From an uncultured Opitutaceae bacterium (GTDB lineage Bacteria; Verrucomicrobiota; Verrucomicrobiia; Opitutales; Opitutaceae): 64,000 nucleotides of DNA. Position numbers and translations under genes: made by a program. Location of the stretch: positions 1 through 64,000 of the forward strand of contig CALFNN010000092.1 of assembly GCA_937902925.1 (NCBI GenBank), given 5' to 3'. The notes below the pieces were generated by a model. The model did no database searches. It worked only from the letters and a program-made list of their open reading frames with translations, and was not told the origin of the DNA. Positions 5,135-14,621 of the stretch are shown here, piece by piece (position 1 is the stretch's first letter; every line of letters begins with the position of its first letter).

Positions 5135-6109
5135 TCAACGTTGATCTAGTGCCGTTGCCACTGCATTCCCAATTGAAGAAGCTGCATCATCGGTTGCATC
5201 AAGATAACCTTGGGCGACGCGTGAATCTTTATGTCGGGTAAATTTCATCAAGGTCTCAACTCCGTGCCCGGATCGATTCACCGCTCGGCCCGCCTCAGTG
5301 AACACCGTATGCCGCAACGCGTGGGGGTGAACTTTGTTCTTCCCGCGCACCTTCCTTATTCCGGCTTTCTTTCCGAGCGCGACAACGAGATCGTACACCG
5401 CCGTCGGGGAAATCCTCCCAAATCTCCCCGGAATCAAATTCGTGAACAGCGCCTTCGACGCGCACTTCGGCCGGACCCTGATCCATTCCTCAATCGCCAC
5501 CGCGCACTTCCTGGAAATTCCAACCCGTTCCTTCTGCCGCCGTCCTTTTGCCAGAATCCAGAGGGCAGGGGAGTCCCCATTTTCGAAATCGTCCAGGTCC
5601 AGCCCAACCAGTTCACGACGGCGTGAACCCGTTTCCGAAAAAACGCGAACGATCGCATAGTTTCTCTTTTCGGCGGATCCGGTGCCATCCTTTGCCACGT
5701 CGAGGATTTTTTTGAGCGCATCCATGCCGGGCCCGCGCACATCGTGGACTCGTTCCGATGGCAGTCCGGCCACGTCCAGTTCCCAGTTTATCATTCCGGC
5801 TCGACGTGCCTTTCGGACCAACCCACGGAGCACCGTGAGTCTCAGGTTAGCGGTGGCGGATCCGAGGCCGCGGCCGCCGACCAATTTGCCTGATTTATCG
5901 CGGGTGCCAGTCATCGAGCGTTTCCAGCGCGCCGCGCAATCATTGGCAGCATCGGCCGTCCGGGAGAGCAGGCGGTCGACGGCCGTCTGAATGTTTTTCC
6001 CGCATCGTGTGAACTCGGCAAAATCCAGCAGGCTGTGGCGGTAGTTGAGCGCGGTCATCGCATTTTCGCGATCGAGGTAGGCCGCCAGGAGTTTCTCCGA
6101 CCGGGTCAT
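5135..6109 (-). CDS. Tyrosine recombinase / integrase
   Basis: A 324-residue protein with an N-terminal SAM-like DNA-binding part (residues 1-110) and a C-terminal catalytic domain. The active-site set is complete: R163 (ETGSRRREL), K188 (WILAKGRR), H263 and R266 (HALRHT), H293 (FTRHKDS) and nucleophile Y302 (VAQGYLD). It should cut and rejoin DNA at an attachment site and is the only clearly active site-specific recombinase in the window. The start at 6109 is supported by a TATAAT box about 37 bases upstream. It lies at the left of the island, pointing away from the transposition operon. Whether it moved this island, or is itself a passenger, cannot be read from sequence alone. Confidence 0.85.
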   Translation of the reverse strand: MTRSEKLLAAYLDRENAMTALNYRHSLLDFAEFTRCGKNIQTAVDRLLSRTADAANDCAARWKRSMTGTRDKSGKLVGGRGLGSATANLRLTVLRGLVRKARRAGMINWELDVAGLPSERVHDVRGPGMDALKKILDVAKDGTGSAEKRNYAIVRVFSETGSRRRELVGLDLDDFENGDSPALWILAKGRRQKERVGISRKCAVAIEEWIRVRPKCASKALFTNLIPGRFGRISPTAVYDLVVALGKKAGIRKVRGKNKVHPHALRHTVFTEAGRAVNRSGHGVETLMKFTRHKDSRVAQGYLDATDDAASSIGNAVATALDQR

Positions 6110-6184: not shown

Positions 6185-6790
6185 GTGTCGATGTCGACAT
6201 ACACGTAAATCGTGGACTACGGGGCGTACCGACCGTTTCGGGCATTTAAATCGTGGACTTTCTACACTTAAATCGTGGACTTTTCGGGCCAGCGTTGACC
6301 GGAAGCAGCGTGTTATGAGCGTCACTGGCAGCGTCGCTCACCGGTCCGACTAAGGATGGGAAACGTGTCGCTGAAACGAGGGCGGCCACTTTCGGATCCG
6401 CGACGTCAATGCGCGACGGTGCTGGGTCGCAAACTCCAGAATCTTCCATTTGGGTGAACCATTCGATGGGTCGGGGCCGAGCAAACAATTATACGGCCGG
6501 GTCCGCATGGAGAGCGGAAGAAGAAATTCCGAAAGAGCCAGCAATACGACCTCGCGCGCAAGCACACCGCAGCGATTGAATGCTCGAGACGGGTCGAATA
6601 ACGGTTTCTCGAGCGCATCCGACTTCCCAGTCCTCATCGGCATTTTCGTCAGGCCCCTTTTCATGCGATGAATCTCGTGGAAAAAATCCGCGATTTACGG
6701 GCTAAAGTCCACGATTTACCTGTCGATTCTGCAAGTCGACACCCGCGCAAATCATTGGTGCCGAATAAACGATGGTCCACGAATTAAATG
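6185..6790. repeat. Two inward-facing clusters of TAAATCGTGGAC sites (transposon-end-like)
   Basis: Exact TAAATCGTGGAC copies occur forward at 6206, 6247 and 6269. Reverse-complemented copies lie at 6707-6718 (exact) and 6775-6786 (TAATTCGTGGAC), with a weaker one near 6691. Each cluster has GGTGTCGA outside the first exact site, at 6184-6191 on the left and its complement at 6736-6743 on the right, 13 and 16 bases away. The arrangement resembles transposon ends with several transposase-binding sites. The enclosed ~450 bases hold one minus-strand frame (6350-6664, 104 codons) that I do not recognise and do not call a gene. The rightmost copy overlaps the end of the downstream XRE gene. Confidence 0.5.
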
Positions 6791-7156
6791 CCAAGCGACA
6801 TTGGCAAATCGGTCCAGCATTTGCGGATCGAGTGTCCCGGCTTCGACCCGGCGAGAAATCTTGGCCAGGGGCGCGACAATTTCGGGGCGCATGGACAAGC
6901 AACCCAGCAACTCCTCGATCTTTTCCCGTGGGTCGTACTGGAGGAGATCGGTGACAGGCCGACCAATCGCCTCCGCCAGTTTCTGCATATGCAGCCGCGA
7001 GGGCATTCGCCGGTTGTGCTCGACGTCAGTCAGAAACGACGGCGAGAGGCCCGCCAACTTGGCAGCGCGGCGCAGGGACAGTGCCGCCGCGACGCGCGTG
7101 GCGCGAAACTGAGCGCCAAACGACTGCCGCGGGATGCGCGGCCAAGGCGAGATCAC
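6752..7156 (-). CDS. XRE-family helix-turn-helix regulator (second of a pair)
   Basis: A 134-residue protein with an N-terminal Cro/CI-type helix-turn-helix (about residues 13-70; FRATRVAAALSLRRAAKLAG followed by LSPSFLTDVEHNRRMPS). The rest is a helical tail with no named domain. The start overlaps the stop of the upstream XRE gene by four bases (ATGA), so the two are translationally coupled. The last residues (IRGPSFIRHQ) and the stop codon are encoded by the repeat copy at 6775-6786 and DNA beside it, so the C-terminus may have been rewritten when that repeat arrived. Likely a repressor of genes in the island; target unknown. Confidence 0.7.
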   Translation of the reverse strand: MISPWPRIPRQSFGAQFRATRVAAALSLRRAAKLAGLSPSFLTDVEHNRRMPSRLHMQKLAEAIGRPVTDLLQYDPREKIEELLGCLSMRPEIVAPLAKISRRVEAGTLDPQMLDRFANVAWHLIRGPSFIRHQ

Positions 7157-7542
7157 GGACGCCTCCGTTCGATCCTACCTAGTTCACGTGCCACGGATAG
7201 CGCGCCGCGCAGGACCGCCTTCTGTTCCTGGTGGTTCAACGTGCGCAGCTCCTTTAGCAGCCGGTCCACGGCTGAACTGCGCTGCGACTTAAATGCCGCG
7301 GGTGCATCGACCAGTTCATCGAGCGACAGGTCCAGCGCCGCACAACAGCGAATCAGGAAGTTCAGTTTCGGATCGGCGACCTTGCGTTCGTTGTGGCGCA
7401 CCAACGTGCGATCGATCCCGAGTTTTTTCGCCAATGCCACCTGGCTGAATCCTGCCGCCTGGCGGGCGGCGGCAAGACGTTCGCCGAAGGGCGTGCGTGG
7501 GTTTGGGGTCGTTCTGCCTCTCATTGGACTGAAATATAGCAT
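7153..7542 (-). CDS. XRE-family helix-turn-helix regulator (first of a pair)
   Basis: A 129-residue protein (123 if the ATG at 7524 is used) with a typical XRE domain at about residues 18-75: GERLAAARQAAGFSQVALAK, then KLGIDRTLVRHNERKVADPK. The C-terminal third is basic and helical. It is read first in a two-gene operon with the next XRE gene, by a four-base overlap. Two dissimilar XRE proteins in tandem suggest a hetero-regulatory pair or a control switch of a mobile element. The direct repeats at 7582-7650 lie just upstream and could be their operator. Confidence 0.75.
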   Translation of the reverse strand: MLYFSPMRGRTTPNPRTPFGERLAAARQAAGFSQVALAKKLGIDRTLVRHNERKVADPKLNFLIRCCAALDLSLDELVDAPAAFKSQRSSAVDRLLKELRTLNHQEQKAVLRGALSVARELGRIERRRP

Positions 7543-7763: not shown

Positions 7764-8945
7764 ATGTCTCGTCCCTTCCCACCGCATTTTCTCGGTTGGT
7801 TCGGTGTCACCTGTCCGATCGTGATCGCTGTGCTGGAGGCGATGAAGCGACCCAAGGCGATCCGGCGAATGCCGCCACAATATCAAGATGGGCTACAGGC
7901 CAGCTTGGCTTGCGATTTGGCCGAGCGCCTCAAGTTCGGAGTAGCGCTTGGGTTAGTTTTAGATCCGACGTTCGAGTCGCCTCTCTTTGACGAAATATGG
8001 GGGACGGGAAGTTTCAGGGTTTGGGTAGCGGAGACGGAATATTTAGAGCGAGAGGGCTGTTCCGTGAACGAGCCCACTCAGCCGATCGTGAGTCATCTTT
8101 GCCCAGCCAACGCTCATCCGGCTCCGCGATGGCAGCCGGGCGAGGCTTGGATGGAAAAATACGCCGAGGGGCTGCCCGCAAATTTTCTGGAGTTGGTCAC
8201 ACCAGAAACGCTCGAAAAGACTTTCTTTTGGAAACGAGGCGGGGCCTCCCAGCCAGCGGGAAGAATAGACCCCCAAAGCGTCGTCAGCGGCAGGAATTTC
8301 CTGCTGGACCAAGGGCCGCCCTATTACCTCCGAAACACCGATCCCGTCTGGTGGGCGGACTTCACGGGCAGGGTGATGAATCGCCTGGCAAATGAAGCGA
8401 TCGCGCGCTGGTGCAGTGTCAGAGATCGAGCCAACAATCTGTTGCTCTCTGACCGAACGGGCGACTTGCGAAAGTGGGACTACCACGCGGCGTCGCTATT
8501 CCTGGAATGCATCGCAGGAAGCAACCGCACGGCGGAAGTCTACGGCCTCCAGACGGAAGACGCCGAACCGCGGAAAATCAATGGTGCTCGTGAAACCTGC
8601 CGGCATCAGGACGACCACGTCTTGTGCTGGTTTGAGAAGATGGGGCTCCGCGTGAATCCTTACGCGCGATGGCTGCATCGACTGGTGGAGGTAAGGAGCC
8701 AGTCAACGGCATTCGTGGACTGGGAGGGGGTGAAAGCAAAAGCGGACCGCTTTGTCCCCGACAACGTGCTTGAAAGTGACGATCTGCGGCAGGCTCAACT
8801 CTGTTGGTGCCTCTCACGCCTGAATCCCGATCAATACCCGTATCGTCCTCGTTTCAGTTCCGCGATTGATCAAGAAAAAGGCGAGCAGTTGCTCCGCAGT
8901 TGGTGGGACCAAGTCAGAGCGGACCAATTCCGCCAATACCGGTAA
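7764..8945 (+). CDS. Unknown protein, 393 aa, island cargo
   Basis: A long frame with protein-like composition rich in Trp, Arg and Glu that matches no family I recognise. The N-terminus is uncertain. The ATG at 7764 gives a Pro-rich start, while an ATG at 7842 (MKRPKAIRRMPPQYQDG) follows GGAGG very closely and may be the true start. Visible stretches are PPYYLRNTDPVWWADFTGR and RLANEAIARWCSVRDRANNL; no signal peptide, membrane segment or catalytic signature stands out. It ends 145 bases before the transposition operon on the same strand. As cargo of a mobile island it could be a defence, accessory or target-related protein, but nothing in it shows which. Confidence 0.5.
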   Translation: MSRPFPPHFLGWFGVTCPIVIAVLEAMKRPKAIRRMPPQYQDGLQASLACDLAERLKFGVALGLVLDPTFESPLFDEIWGTGSFRVWVAETEYLEREGCSVNEPTQPIVSHLCPANAHPAPRWQPGEAWMEKYAEGLPANFLELVTPETLEKTFFWKRGGASQPAGRIDPQSVVSGRNFLLDQGPPYYLRNTDPVWWADFTGRVMNRLANEAIARWCSVRDRANNLLLSDRTGDLRKWDYHAASLFLECIAGSNRTAEVYGLQTEDAEPRKINGARETCRHQDDHVLCWFEKMGLRVNPYARWLHRLVEVRSQSTAFVDWEGVKAKADRFVPDNVLESDDLRQAQLCWCLSRLNPDQYPYRPRFSSAIDQEKGEQLLRSWWDQVRADQFRQYR

Positions 8946-9090
8946 AAAAAGTTCAAATCCGTTTTTGATAAACTTGCGTTGATCTGGGCCCTCAACCTAG
9001 AGCCTAGACATGCGAGTTTTTCATGAATTCTGCGTCCGTTCGCGTCGAGCGCGCACATCGTGAGACCCAACCCATTTTCGTGGATTCACG

Positions 9091-9744
9091 ATGGTCCGGG
9101 AGCTTTCAAACAAACACTTGCCGGCTGAAGCGGCCTACACCTATCGGTGGGACTTCTATTCAGCCCGCTTGAAGCGACTCGTTTCAGGAGCGGGAACACT
9201 AAAGTTGGATTATTTTATCCTACTGGAGTGCAGCCCCGAACTGGAGCATTATGAACCGTTCCCGAGTTGCGAAATGAAGACGGGTGCCGAAGCGGGCACC
9301 ATCCGAGCCGACGCCATTTTAACCAACCGCGACGGTGCGAAGTCACTCGCAATCGTCAGGGCCAGGCAAAGCCAGGTAGAGGCCGTCGGCGGAGAGGACG
9401 GCCTCCGCAAACAATGGGCCGCGACAAAAAAGCTGCGGTATGTCGAAGTCAGCCCGGAGGAAATCCGAGCGCCCAACTGCTACCTCTCTAACTGCTACAC
9501 GATGTTTCCCTGGCTGGCGGAATTGCACGAACCGTCGGCCGCGGACAGTCGTGTCGTGCTCGGCGCAATCGCGCAACTGTCGAAACCAGTGGGCCTGGAG
9601 AAGATCGCGCAGCTTACCGGTCTCCATTGCGAAGTGGTGATGGCGGTGGCGTGCCGCGCGCAGGCACGCGGCATCATCCAAATTGAGGAAATTCGCACGC
9701 GGAAACTGGACTATGATTCGCGAGTGTCCAGCCGCTCAGTCTAA
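9091..9744 (+). CDS. TnsA-like subunit of heteromeric transposase, probably catalytically degenerate
   Basis: A 217-residue protein directly before the TnsB-type gene. Residues ~20-120 can be fitted to the TnsA endonuclease fold: DYFILLECSPELEHYEPFPS matches the region where TnsA reads 'ERDFLLLLEFDPxVxxYEEQP', and TIRADAILTNRDG matches the strand with the conserved catalytic Asp. The C-terminal ~80 residues look like the winged-helix part that contacts TnsC. In active TnsA the nuclease uses Glu, Asp and Lys; here the Glu position in the first motif is not acidic (GTLKLDY) and the strand that should carry Lys reads SLAIVRARQS. It may be structural only, or more divergent than I can align by eye. 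Confidence 0.55.
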   Translation: MVRELSNKHLPAEAAYTYRWDFYSARLKRLVSGAGTLKLDYFILLECSPELEHYEPFPSCEMKTGAEAGTIRADAILTNRDGAKSLAIVRARQSQVEAVGGEDGLRKQWAATKKLRYVEVSPEEIRAPNCYLSNCYTMFPWLAELHEPSAADSRVVLGAIAQLSKPVGLEKIAQLTGLHCEVVMAVACRAQARGIIQIEEIRTRKLDYDSRVSSRSV

Positions 9745-9745
9745 C

Positions 9746-11647
9746 ATGCGCAACATCTTGCAGGGAGTCGACATCCGCCGGTTGGAGATGGATACGTGGC
9801 CAACCGTCGATGAAACGCTGCTCGATGCAGAGGAAAGAGAGCCATTCCGCCGTCGCAAATGCGCGGTCATCGCTGTCATCCGGAGCAATAGCGTTAATCT
9901 CGGCGCGGAAGAGAGTGGCCTCACGCCGAAGGAGGTACGGCGCGTCTTCAAACGCTGCCTCAAAATCCACCGCGACGGTCGGGTCACCGGCTTTCGGGCC
10001 TGCGTCCGCTATCACCGGATCAAGAATTACGAACTGAGCGATGAGACCACCACCGGTTACGCCGGGCTGCTAGGCCGGCTGTTTCGGAATTATCCCTCTA
10101 TTGAAAAGGCCCTGATCAGGTTTGCTACCTCCCGAAAAAACAGTGAGATGACGTTGCCCGTTCGAGTCTCAGACCTTTCCTTCAAACTTCTTGAGCTTTG
10201 TCGCGAGGTGGGGCTGGCAGCGAACGAGTATCCGCTTGCGGCGGTCGAGAGCGCGAGGAAGGCGCTCGAGGGTTGGTATGCGCGGTTGGCCGATTCCATG
10301 GGGCGGGGTTTTATCCGCGCTGAATTCGGCGAAGATGCCGCCAGGCAGTACGACGATGGGCTGGAGGCTTATGTCAGCTCGGTCGATCCGCACCGGATCA
10401 TGGTTTTCGACGAATGGACGGCGCACGCATTTACCGCCGTGGAGATTCCGCAGCCCGGTGGCGGAACGATGTGGGTGCCCATAAGCCGCTACAAGTTCAT
10501 CAATGGTGTCCGACGCGGTGATCACGTCGTTTGCGCCAGCCGACCGGTGTTGAGAAAAGAGCCCGATGTCGCGGAGTTTCTCGCCACCATTGAGGGCGCC
10601 ATCCGCCCTCATCGGCGACGGGAATTCACGGTTCCGGGTTATGCCTATCCGGCCACTCCGTGTTTCACGTCGGACACCCCGGGAGGTGAATGGCTGCTCC
10701 CAGATCTCTTGTATCTGGACCGGTCCCTTGTTCACCTTGCCGCAGAGAACCGAATCGCCATCACCAGAGGGCTAGGCTCAATCATATTGTATGGTCCGCC
10801 GCGCCGCCCCAGGGGGCGCGGCGACGTCGAAGCGCTGAATTCGTTCTTCGCGACCAAGGTCAGGAAGTTTCCTACGACAACCGGATCAGGCCCCAAGGAT
10901 CCAGTTCGACACGAGCCAGAAAAGGAAGCTGTCCGACTCCACTTTCATCACGACCTCCTGGCGCAGTTTCTGGAAATGCTACGCGTAGACTACTCTACGT
11001 GCGGGAAAAAGTCGCTAAAAGGGCATACGCCGATGGAGGTGTTCCAGCGGTGGGCGGGCAATTCGTGCACTATCCTCAGGCATTTGCCGCCGAGCCACCG
11101 CGACCAGTTCGCCCTCGCGGAATTGTGCGTACCCGTAACCATCTCCTGCGACCAAAAGAGCGGGAGGCAGCCGGTCGTTCGTTACAAATATGGCGAGTAT
11201 GTCGGTCCGCACTTGGCCAATATGCGCAGTCGCAACAAAGAGAAGTGCCTGTTGGTCCTCAACCGGCAAGCGGCTCACCTTGGGCGACTGTATTCGCTTC
11301 GGGAGCACGAGAAACACGAGATTGACGTGCTTCACACCCGCGGCGAATGGAAGGAACCCCACACGCTCCGCGAGCGTGAATTGTACTACGATTTCAAGGT
11401 GTCCCGGCAGCAGAAGCCGCGCGATCGAACAAAGTCGCGGACTCAGCAACTGCGCGAGTTCTGCGAGCGCCAAGCGGCTGCCGACAAGGACATGGCGCTG
11501 GTTTACGCCGACCTTAGCAAGCCGGCAGCCGAAGGCACCGCTGATCCGCTCGTCGAACCGCACGCCACGCAAGCGAAAGAGGTGCCTGAATCGTCCGAGG
11601 AAACTTGGCGAAAATTGAATTGTTTGTCGGAAAAAATCACGTGGTAG
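9746..11647 (+). CDS. TnsB/TniA-type DDE transposase
   Basis: From the ATG at 9746, one base after the upstream stop, the protein has 633 residues. An in-frame TTG at 9683 and an ATG at 9713 are alternatives. The size and layout fit TnsB: N-terminal DNA-binding helices, a retroviral-integrase core, and a basic C-terminal region. Catalytic residues are D222 (IMVFDEWTA), D325 (LLYLDRSLVH) and E362 (RGDVEALNS), with the last two 36 residues apart as in DDE enzymes. There is an inserted segment after the first Asp (PQPGGGTMWVP). It would bind the transposon ends and join them to target DNA. The extreme C-terminus (SEETWRKLNCLSEKITW) may contact TnsC. Confidence 0.85.
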   Translation: MRNILQGVDIRRLEMDTWPTVDETLLDAEEREPFRRRKCAVIAVIRSNSVNLGAEESGLTPKEVRRVFKRCLKIHRDGRVTGFRACVRYHRIKNYELSDETTTGYAGLLGRLFRNYPSIEKALIRFATSRKNSEMTLPVRVSDLSFKLLELCREVGLAANEYPLAAVESARKALEGWYARLADSMGRGFIRAEFGEDAARQYDDGLEAYVSSVDPHRIMVFDEWTAHAFTAVEIPQPGGGTMWVPISRYKFINGVRRGDHVVCASRPVLRKEPDVAEFLATIEGAIRPHRRREFTVPGYAYPATPCFTSDTPGGEWLLPDLLYLDRSLVHLAAENRIAITRGLGSIILYGPPRRPRGRGDVEALNSFFATKVRKFPTTTGSGPKDPVRHEPEKEAVRLHFHHDLLAQFLEMLRVDYSTCGKKSLKGHTPMEVFQRWAGNSCTILRHLPPSHRDQFALAELCVPVTISCDQKSGRQPVVRYKYGEYVGPHLANMRSRNKEKCLLVLNRQAAHLGRLYSLREHEKHEIDVLHTRGEWKEPHTLRERELYYDFKVSRQQKPRDRTKSRTQQLREFCERQAAADKDMALVYADLSKPAAEGTADPLVEPHATQAKEVPESSEETWRKLNCLSEKITW

Positions 11648-11653
11648 GATTTT

Positions 11654-12601
11654 ATGAGTACCCAAGCAAATCGAGTCGAAGAAAAAGTCTGGGATACTCC
11701 ATTTCCAACTCCGATGGCGCAGGATGTTTTCGCGTTCATGGGCCGTGTGATCGCGTTGGGCCATCCGGGAGGAGTGATCTACGCCCCAACCCGCACCGGA
11801 AAGACCCGGCTGCTCATGATGAGTGTCGAACGAGCCCAGTCCGTCAAAGGTCTGCGCAATAATTCCTTCGAGTCAAAAACGCTAGCGATTGATGCCACCG
11901 ATCGCCTGGTTCTTTCCGAGGGCGGTTTTTGGACGTGGTTGCTCGGCCAGGTGGGGCACCGCGAAGCACTAAGCCGATGCGGCCCGGCCAACAAGAGGCA
12001 TCTTGCAGTGGAATATTTCAAGGGACTAGCCAACACGATTCCCTCGGGGCGGGTTGTCCTGTTCGTCGACGAAGCTCAGCATCTCACGCTAGTGGAGCTC
12101 GGTTGGTTTGCCGACCTTTTTAACGCACTCGACAAGGCTGGCTTCAAACTCGTGCTTTTTCTCGTTGGCTCCTATCACCTTCAAAAATGGAACATCGAAC
12201 TCCAGGGCAAAGCGCACGCCCACATTCGTTCGCGTTTCTTTTCCCAAGAACACCCCCTGCGAGGCCTCGCAAATCTGGACGATTTCCGGCGCTGCCTCCA
12301 TCGGTACGACGCCGACACTGAACCGTTCGGCGGCCCGGAGACCTTCACGTCGCATTTTCAATCCGCGTGGCATGCCCAAGGCGGTCGGCTCGCCGACCAC
12401 GCCGGAGTCCTGAGACAGGCCTTCGGAGAGGCATGCGAGAGACTCAGGGGGTTTGAGGTGCCGATGGCGTACTTTGCGCTCGCAGTGCGCACTCTGCTCG
12501 ATCAGCCGCCCCTCAAGGAAGTGACCCTCGAACTGATGCGCACGATCGTCACCGGCACTCCCTTCGCCAAGAATTATGATCCGGGGCAAATCACGGAATA
12601 A
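11654..12601 (+). CDS. TnsC/TniB-type AAA+ ATPase, transposition regulator
   Basis: A 315-residue protein starting six bases after the TnsB stop. It has a Walker A motif (APTRTGKT, K50) and a Walker B motif (VVLFVDEAQH, with D139), then the arginine-rich and sensor parts of the AAA+ fold. Proteins of this family polymerise on DNA, carry the target signal from TniQ-type proteins to the transposase, and hydrolyse ATP to release it. Residues 1-25 could be the TnsB-contact segment. It overlaps the next gene by 26 bases, a sign of a coupled operon. Length is close to TniB of Tn5053/Tn6022 rather than the 555-residue TnsC of Tn7. Confidence 0.85.
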   Translation: MSTQANRVEEKVWDTPFPTPMAQDVFAFMGRVIALGHPGGVIYAPTRTGKTRLLMMSVERAQSVKGLRNNSFESKTLAIDATDRLVLSEGGFWTWLLGQVGHREALSRCGPANKRHLAVEYFKGLANTIPSGRVVLFVDEAQHLTLVELGWFADLFNALDKAGFKLVLFLVGSYHLQKWNIELQGKAHAHIRSRFFSQEHPLRGLANLDDFRRCLHRYDADTEPFGGPETFTSHFQSAWHAQGGRLADHAGVLRQAFGEACERLRGFEVPMAYFALAVRTLLDQPPLKEVTLELMRTIVTGTPFAKNYDPGQITE

Positions 12602-13250
12602 TGCGGGACCGGCTCCGCTTTCAGGCGCCGGTCCGTGCCTATGCGGTTTCGGCGCCTCATATCGCGCGACGGAATCGTTTTGGTGTATCGGCTCCAAGCT
12701 TTGTTGGGCGAACGGTCTCTCGGCTGCGAGGCTCAATGCCATTGTGTTTCCCCACCATCGACGTAGCCGATTTCACCCGCTGCTTTGCGCCGAAATGGCG
12801 GATTTCGCTGAACTCTCTACCTTGACCGGCATTCCTGCAGAAACTTTCCCTAAGGGCACTGGCCGTTGCCTTACTAAGAACCTAAAATTGTTGGACACTA
12901 TAGCGTACACCGACCTGCGGTTCTGCCCGCGGTGTCTCGCGAGCGGCTTTCATTCGGTGCTAATGCAATTTCCTCTGTTTGCACGCTGTCCGATCCACAG
13001 GCTTACGCTTGTCGATCATTGTAATACATGCGGCTGTGCGATTGAATATGCTTGGCCCGACAGCGCCTTAAAGGCGTTTCATTGCGCCTGCGGCGCAACG
13101 CTTTGGCAGCCGCGGCAATTTAGTCAGACCGCCGAAGTCGCGCACGAAAATCAGATGAAGGCTCTGTGCGACGATTCGGCCCGATGGATCGCGCGTACAT
13201 TGCGGATAGCGACCAACGGCGCCGCGCTTCACCGGAATGATATGCGCTAA
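12576..13250 (+). CDS. TniQ-family target-selection protein
   Basis: A 224-residue protein whose start at 12576 overlaps the ATPase gene. An N-terminal stretch (ATESFWCIGSKLCWANGLSA) matches the TniQ pattern 'ESLxSWLxRLAxxNGLS', supporting this early start. The TniQ zinc site follows: C117-x2-C120, H126, C138-x2-H141, C149-x2-C152, in the order seen in TniQ (CPxC...CPxH...CxxCG). A further C170/C172 pair may complete a second site. TniQ proteins bind TnsC and link it to a DNA-binding target selector. It is shorter than TnsD, which suggests that a separate partner supplies target recognition, presumably the next gene, with which it overlaps by 14 bases. Confidence 0.8.
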   Translation: MIRGKSRNNAGPAPLSGAGPCLCGFGASYRATESFWCIGSKLCWANGLSAARLNAIVFPHHRRSRFHPLLCAEMADFAELSTLTGIPAETFPKGTGRCLTKNLKLLDTIAYTDLRFCPRCLASGFHSVLMQFPLFARCPIHRLTLVDHCNTCGCAIEYAWPDSALKAFHCACGATLWQPRQFSQTAEVAHENQMKALCDDSARWIARTLRIATNGAALHRNDMR

Positions 13251-14124
13251 GTCTGAGGTTGGCGCGTTTGAGCAGCTTCTTGCTTCAGCTGAAGGGGCGG
13301 AGGTCTTACTGACACGAATCAGCGAAGGCCGTTTTTGGGAATCATGCAGGGGGTACACCGCCCCGAGGTCGATCAATCGCTTGCTGACAACGCTGAGTTT
13401 GCTGGTTCACGCGGCTCACTTGCGGGGGATTTTACCAAGGCGTATGCAACCCATACCTCGGCTCAGAGTAGGCGATGGCGATCAGGGTTCCGCGTTCGGC
13501 CTCAGTGACATCGTTCGAGTCGTCGATTACGCCAAATTGGACGACTCCAAAATCGGACGGCGGGTGTACGCGATCCTGTGGCTTAGCCTGGACTTGTATC
13601 TCACGCTCGAGGCACTTAGAGAACTAAGCATTCAAGACCTAGATTTGCCGAACGCGCGCATACGGATTCTAATCGGACGCGAACGCGCATTTGTCTGGCG
13701 TGAGATGGCTACTGCTACAGTCTCAGCGCTCTTGCGTTGGCTTGAGGTACGAAAAGCATGGGGCGACGAATGCCAGTCACCAGTCTTTACCAACGTCATA
13801 GAGCCGCATACAGCGAATCGACTCAGCACATTGCAGATTGGCCTGGATATCGTTCGGGCGTTCTCGCGAGTGAGGTTGAAGGGAGGGCATCGAACGCTAG
13901 TCAGTGTTTCGCGCAGAGAATCGGTTTTGAATGAGTTTGCCGTTAGCTTGTTGGCGAAGAGTGGTGTGGGGCGCACACCCAAAAATGCGCAGACAACCTC
14001 GGAACTTGTTGCGTTGGAGCGACGTTTCGCGCGGTTGGTTGTCGAGGACCGTGCGCGCATGTTTTTAGGCAACGTCGATGGGAACGGCAGTTCAACGTGC
14101 GCTGGACCGATCAGCTTACCGTAG
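13237..14124 (+). CDS. TnsF-like inactivated tyrosine recombinase, putative target selector
   Basis: A 295-residue protein read as the last gene of the operon. Residues ~90-260 follow the tyrosine recombinase core: a helix ending ELSIQDLDL where recombinases read 'ELxxLxxxDLD', a strand RIRILIGRERAFVWREM where the catalytic Lys lies, and GHRTLVSVSRRES where HxxR is expected. The key residues do not match: the first Arg position reads Thr (LYLTLEALREL), the HxxR Arg is absent, and no 'GH...Y' end is found. This fits TnsF of Tn6022-like elements, in which an inactive tyrosine recombinase chooses the target. Alignment is by eye, so the exact lost residues need checking. Confidence 0.6.
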   Translation: MICAKSEVGAFEQLLASAEGAEVLLTRISEGRFWESCRGYTAPRSINRLLTTLSLLVHAAHLRGILPRRMQPIPRLRVGDGDQGSAFGLSDIVRVVDYAKLDDSKIGRRVYAILWLSLDLYLTLEALRELSIQDLDLPNARIRILIGRERAFVWREMATATVSALLRWLEVRKAWGDECQSPVFTNVIEPHTANRLSTLQIGLDIVRAFSRVRLKGGHRTLVSVSRRESVLNEFAVSLLAKSGVGRTPKNAQTTSELVALERRFARLVVEDRARMFLGNVDGNGSSTCAGPISLP

Positions 14125-14224: not shown

Positions 14225-14320
14225 CACTTTTGGTTCCGAAATGAGGGGAGGCTAAAGAGCCTTTTTGTCGGAACGACCACTTTTACTTCCAGATGCGACT
14301 ACTTTTAGTTCCGGATAACA
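14225..14320 (+). repeat. Candidate right end of the Tn7-like element (three CACTTTT(A/G)GTTCCGGA-type sites)
   Basis: Three direct copies of a 16-base site: CACTTTTGGTTCCGAA at 14225, CACTTTTACTTCCAGA at 14278, TACTTTTAGTTCCGGA at 14300. Five bases after the last copy the sequence ends in ACA at 14320, the expected terminus of a Tn7-type end (TGT on the other strand). The close pair near the tip plus a more distant copy is a usual arrangement of TnsB-binding sites. A matching left end was not found. Confidence 0.5.
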
Positions 14321-14595: not shown

Positions 14596-14621
14596 GGGTT
14601 CGACCCCCACCCCGGGCACCA
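14596..14621 (+). tRNA. tRNA 3'-end fragment (attachment-site remnant)
   Basis: GGGTTCGACCCCCACC followed by CCGGGCACCA reads as a T-loop (TTCGACC), the 3' half of the T-stem (CCCAC), a seven-base acceptor strand (CCCGGGC), the discriminator A, and CCA. The acceptor would pair with GCCCGGG, which is common in tRNA-Leu. The preceding ~60 bases do not fold as the rest of a tRNA, so only the 3' end is here, as left by integration of an element into a tRNA gene. Confidence 0.55.

Follow-up and report, generated by a model that had tools for sequence, protein, structure and literature searches.

An inactivated tyrosine recombinase, possibly a target selector, at the end of a compact Tn7-like transposition operon

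What could a recombinase that has lost its active site do at the end of a transposition operon? This question is raised by a 64,000-nucleotide stretch of DNA from an uncultured Opitutaceae bacterium (the window), in which a compact tnsA-tnsB-tnsC-tniQ element, Tn7-like by sequence and with an intact DDE motif in TnsB, ends in a 295-aa open reading frame (ORF) lying exactly where an earlier note had described a recombinase-fold protein without its active site (Table 1). The note had also called it the last gene of the operon, which is correct: it follows tniQ, and read directly from the sequence its ATG sits 14 nt inside the tniQ end, in a different frame. Its own frame has no stop in 295 codons, compared with 5–16 stops in each of the other five frames, and none of 5,000 base shuffles of the ORF kept the frame open.

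Table 1. Features of the window around the transposition operon (YR, tyrosine recombinase).
Feature	Coordinates	Strand	Basis
Active YR	5135–6109	-	PF00589, 6.6e-18; 5' end faces Tn7-like element
Degenerate, possible left end; 152 bp from the outermost site-like sequence to tnsA	8933–9085	+	weak
tnsA-like, E-x-K nuclease motif degraded	9091–9744	+	alignment of 67 TnsA-like ORFs
tnsB, DDE transposase; D243, D346 and E383 invariant in alignment	9683–11647	+	
tnsC, AAA ATPase	11654–12601	+	PF13401, 5e-12; alignable with relatives
tniQ, short, 224 aa; 14-nt overlap with dead-YR start	12576–13250	+	PF06527, 2.6e-7
Dead YR derivative, TnsF-like position	13237–14124	+	YR HMM, residue losses, AF2 model
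Probable right end: three TnsB-site-like repeats, ending ...GGATAACA	14227–14320	+	

Pfam gave a sub-threshold match of the ORF to PF00589 (Phage_integrase; E 0.12, residues 105–201), NCBIfam a weak match to a tyrosine-type invertase (0.061) and a PHROGs search no match. As these results are weak alone, descent from YRs is drawn from two other searches. In tblastn against plasmids the matches were genuine YRs (best E 4e-4), and an HMM built on eight active YRs, with the ORF excluded, ranked it at 2e-22 in a search of 5,461 ORFs, aligning residues 28–216. Direct homology searches found no homologue in phages, viral contigs, 95 close relatives or PDB sequences, and 388 genomes of the phylum yielded weak partial matches only, several of which were ordinary YRs. 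The protein is a single example, with no orthologue in the 95 close relatives or in 71 related elements.

A single-sequence AlphaFold model was useless (pLDDT 38). AF2 was rerun with a 42-row alignment comprising the dead protein, the active YR of the window and 40 YRs from viral contigs. Block-mean pLDDT was then 82–97 for residues 91–210, 63–83 for most of residues 11–90 and 66 for residues 211–220; from residue ~221 onward it was mostly <50, and the last ~78 residues are the expected place of HxxR and the Tyr. The top Foldseek match of the model was XerA (5.6e-6), followed more weakly by Cre and XerD, and VIA-align gave Z 15.7 over 185 residues for XerD and Z 12.8 for XerH, the reference structure used by the TnsF paper itself (see below). 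Because the input alignment consisted of YRs, the model is biased towards the YR fold; it shows compatibility with this fold and supplements, but does not replace, the sequence evidence. Together, sequence and model identify the protein as a YR derivative in fold and descent. The recombinase fold that the earlier note had recognised holds for residues ~11–217, which are modelled confidently and overlay on XerD, and is not confidently kept in the C-terminal third. Since the confident fold stops at ~217 and pLDDT is low after it, the protein is best described, from sequence and model, as a partial catalytic domain, its C-terminal third diverged or lost, together with a small core-binding part, not as a whole fold with point losses.

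Loss of the active site is seen column by column in the alignment of 42 YRs. The Arg I position, three before the motif Glu, is R in all 41 other sequences (R163 in the active YR of the window) and T123 here, as the earlier note had read it. The motif Glu (41/41 others) is replaced by A126, and the catalytic Lys (40/41 others) is lost, its column holding G147. Both further losses that the note had claimed, the HxxR Arg and a Tyr-ending motif, were also confirmed: HxxR is absent from the entire 295-aa sequence, and Tyr occurs at positions 40, 98, 111 and 121 only, with none beyond Y121. Different MAFFT alignments placed the C-terminal third differently, so that residue-to-residue replacement in this part is uncertain and the absence of the motifs is certain; an Arg put near the HxxR column by one alignment was discounted, as the protein contains no HxxR. 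Judged by its residues, a protein without the R-K-H-R-(H/W)-Y set is not an active YR enzyme.

The other YR of the window, as the note had stated, is different, since it retains the full catalytic set (R163, K188, H263, R266, H293 and Y302). In a maximum-likelihood tree of 63 YRs, both window proteins fell in one plasmid/phage-type clade, with 100/99 support against other YRs; the branch of the dead YR is very long, at 3.6 changes per column, and this tree does not settle its exact sister. The aligned YR relatives are catalytically intact or nearly so, by which the loss of catalysis looks derived in this lineage; no intermediate between active YRs and the dead YR was found. The earlier note had placed two recombinase-fold proteins with opposite fates in one island. 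They do share a clade, but the active YR, ~3 kb from tnsA, is probably outside the Tn7-like element, whose right end is probably at ~14320 and whose left end most likely comes shortly before tnsA (~8.93 kb, a weak call). Between the active YR and two XRE-type regulator genes there are six AAATCGTGGACTT-like sites, three per orientation (6207–6282 on the plus strand and 6684–6785 on the minus strand) and in pairs 21–22 bp apart; these sites might mark a resolvase/att region or, alternatively, a small non-autonomous element whose ends are TnsB-like.

The probable right end is marked by three CGACnACTTTTnnTTCC-like units at 14227, 14280 and 14302, the last two 22 bp apart, which are the sole matches in 64 kb and all lie within 88 bp. 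Several relatives terminate soon after tniQ in TnsB-site arrays. For example, at the right ends of loci L062 and L065 a pair of TGACGACTTTACTTCG-like units, 23–24 bp apart, lies ~100–130 bp past the tniQ ORF, and that of L037 has two units 22 bp apart. By comparison with these arrays, the window element most likely has its right end at ~14320. The call rests on clustering, unit similarity and spacing, since a PWM derived from Burkholderiales TnsB sites fails to rank the three window units. IS21 genes flank L037, but an IS21-type end is an unlikely identity for the array, as L062 and L065 have a similar unit and spacing directly after tniQ. With the right end at ~14320, the dead YR would be an extra gene gained between tniQ and this end. 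By analogy with relatives, in which the distance is about 150–165 bp, a degenerate left end is likely ~150 bp upstream of tnsA; an exact search found neither this end nor a target-site duplication, which in a Tn7-like transposon would be 5 bp. The stop codon of a 393-aa ORF (7764–8945) falls at the probable left end.

A precedent for such a gene is tnsF of Tn6022. It overlaps the end of the short tniQ that it immediately follows, and its product, TnsF, has an inactivated YR domain, interacts with both DNA and TniQ, and is required when the element transposes into comM (Faure et al. 2023, PMC10293859). In the literature searched, TnsF is the one case described of transposon target selection by a dead tyrosine recombinase. 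The window protein is similar to it in two respects: within its tnsABC-tniQ operon, its gene likewise follows a short tniQ immediately and overlaps it, and the protein also has a partial catalytic domain with the catalytic chamber missing. In contrast, TnsF is 476–498 aa long and has an N-terminal multi-zinc-finger region (~199 aa), whereas in the 295-aa window protein YR homology begins at ~28 and there is no CxxC pair. In pAB3, TniQ (371 aa) and the following gene (476 aa) overlap by 8 nt, and the 476-aa protein (Tn6021) was taken as TnsF by position and its zinc-finger-rich N-terminus; the window protein showed no similarity to it (hhalign probability 0.2, BLASTP E 92) in this comparison with a single sequence, which has weak sensitivity. 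The window protein is much closer than TnsF to ordinary active plasmid/phage YRs. With those of cyanobacterial and Azospirillum plasmids, and with the active YR of the window, it shares clade and core fold, although it differs from them in the lost catalytic residues, the diverged C-terminal third and the long branch. Membership in the TnsF family was rejected for want of detectable similarity and zinc fingers. Since the protein is not of this family, yet operon position and logic match, the best reading is that an inactivated YR was recruited independently to partner TniQ; by this analogy it looks like a reinvention of the TnsF trick, with the partner acting as target selector.

YR descent and fold, an active site lost in a frame that stayed open, the overlap with tniQ, the position before the right end and the TnsF precedent together lead us to favour, with modest confidence, a domesticated target selector of the compact Tn7-like transposon, which would bind a specific site and recruit TniQ-TnsC. 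DNA binding, contact with TniQ and the targeting role are what we infer from these features. The earlier note had likewise expected a target-site reader of a protein that keeps a DNA-binding fold but has lost catalysis, and such a role is plausible. The core-binding helices and the first two-thirds of the catalytic domain would supply sequence-specific DNA binding; the protein may bend the bound site and pass it to TniQ-TnsC, which would then load TnsB. By descent, the site should resemble the core site of a plasmid/phage YR. If true, a second and apparently unrelated case would mean that TniQ can take recombinase-fold proteins as partners on more than one occasion, and that a zinc-finger-free selector of 295 aa can consist of little beyond a DNA-binding core.

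Dead YR folds also serve as repressors, as in MrpR/YopR of SPbeta and SroF of phi3T (MrpR: PMC10516654), which use a YR fold for DNA binding without recombination, as proposed for the window protein, and are among the structural matches of its model; they regulate lysogeny and have no link to TniQ or transposition. The window gene might then encode a repressor acting on the transposition operon or on genes nearby. We consider this unlikely: the three matches rank below XerD, XerA and Cre, the dead-YR gene overlaps tniQ and closes the operon, and the two XRE-type regulators (6752–7542) are already present.

Related operons were gathered from plasmids, from relatives' genomes and by scanning 84,980 species genomes; just two further genomes came from the samples of the class and the phylum, and viral contigs scanned for TnsB yielded no relative. 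None of the 71 related loci has a YR derivative comparable to that of the window after tniQ. TniQ of the relatives falls in two sizes, short (about 212–259 aa) and long (about 436–570 aa), and the window TniQ (224 aa) is without the long C-terminal region found in many of them. The idea that TniQ and the dead YR (~519 aa summed) represent a split long TniQ was rejected, as the C-terminal regions of relatives show no similarity. Loci with a TniQ too short for target selection have been reported by Faure et al. (PMC10293859). A short TniQ is also seen in Burkholderiales relatives without a partner gene, which indicates that a short TniQ alone does not require a partner.

The TnsA-like protein of the window has lost the E-x-K motif, as have those of most Burkholderiales relatives, whereas Bacillota and Nitrospira relatives mostly keep it, a pattern suggesting that transposition probably became replicative inside a single clade. 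Transposition by the window element would then probably be replicative and need resolution, and a tyrosine or serine resolvase is usually present in Tn7-like elements that have no TnsA (PMC8649781). Besides, both window YRs share one clade, so the dead YR might be an accessory or structural subunit in cointegrate resolution, acting with the active YR or with a host YR. Such a role appears improbable for a protein that is without the nucleophile, whose gene overlaps tniQ and is unlinked to that of the active YR, itself probably outside the element. The ORF may instead be functionless and in decay, having once been a resolvase gene or a captured YR gene. This would fit the very long branch, the C-terminal third without detectable homology and the lack of a clear left end, but is also improbable given 295 codons free of stops and frameshifts despite the loss of catalytic residues, a start codon within the tniQ end and a confident fold over residues ~11–217.

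The surroundings of the relatives bear on how a selector of this kind may have arisen. Counted over 68 non-duplicate loci related to the element, YR genes lying no more than 800 bp from the gene block had their 5' end facing the element in 9 cases and facing away in none (expected ~2.7 each), the cases being partly dependent, as L055 and L061 look like one insertion and L031 was counted twice. The relatives that adjoin the 5' end of YR genes are L002, L032, L034, L055, L061, L031, L036 and L056, and the clustered neighbour YRs are mostly of a single family. A YR gene appears to be interrupted by the right end in L034, the tniQ end lies ~100 bp upstream of a YR start codon in L055 and L061, and the left end abuts a YR gene in L032. 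This arrangement resembles that of the TniQ-bearing Tn5053/Tn402 elements, 'res-site hunters' that target resolvase-occupied res sites in the account given in PMC11406308 (citing Minakhina et al. 1999). According to that account their guide is an external resolvase acting in trans at res sites, whereas the guide proposed for the window element is an inactive YR in cis. YR-gene adjacency, loss of E-x-K, and the resolvase and Tn5053 literature suggest that the lineage may be steered by recombinases, with the window element bearing its own inactive guide. A more far-reaching reading, which we offer as possible but doubtful, is that this Tn7-like lineage hunts YR sites: a YR of the host or of a plasmid, bound upstream of the gene that encodes it, would guide the short-TniQ relatives in trans, and the window element would have internalised the guide by capturing a plasmid/phage-type YR and discarding catalysis, a second independent TnsF-like origin with the precursor still visible. 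The link of short-TniQ relatives to YR genes makes it testable how elements with a too-short TniQ find their targets, a question raised in PMC10293859, and whether guidance in trans by a recombinase precedes capture in cis.

Two further observations concern mobile elements in the same genome. At 14597–14621 of the window there is a 24-nt fragment resembling a tRNA 3' end (GTTCGACCCCCACCCCGGGCACCA), 21 nt of which recur near recombinase genes on another contig (G000:C52, locus L015); from this recurrence, it is probably an attachment-site remnant of an integrative element. A second element, TnsA-less and Tn5053/Tn402-like, is present on contig G000:C87 (locus L163, 5924–10763) and has a divergent tyrosine recombinase of 340 aa and a tniQ of 398 aa.
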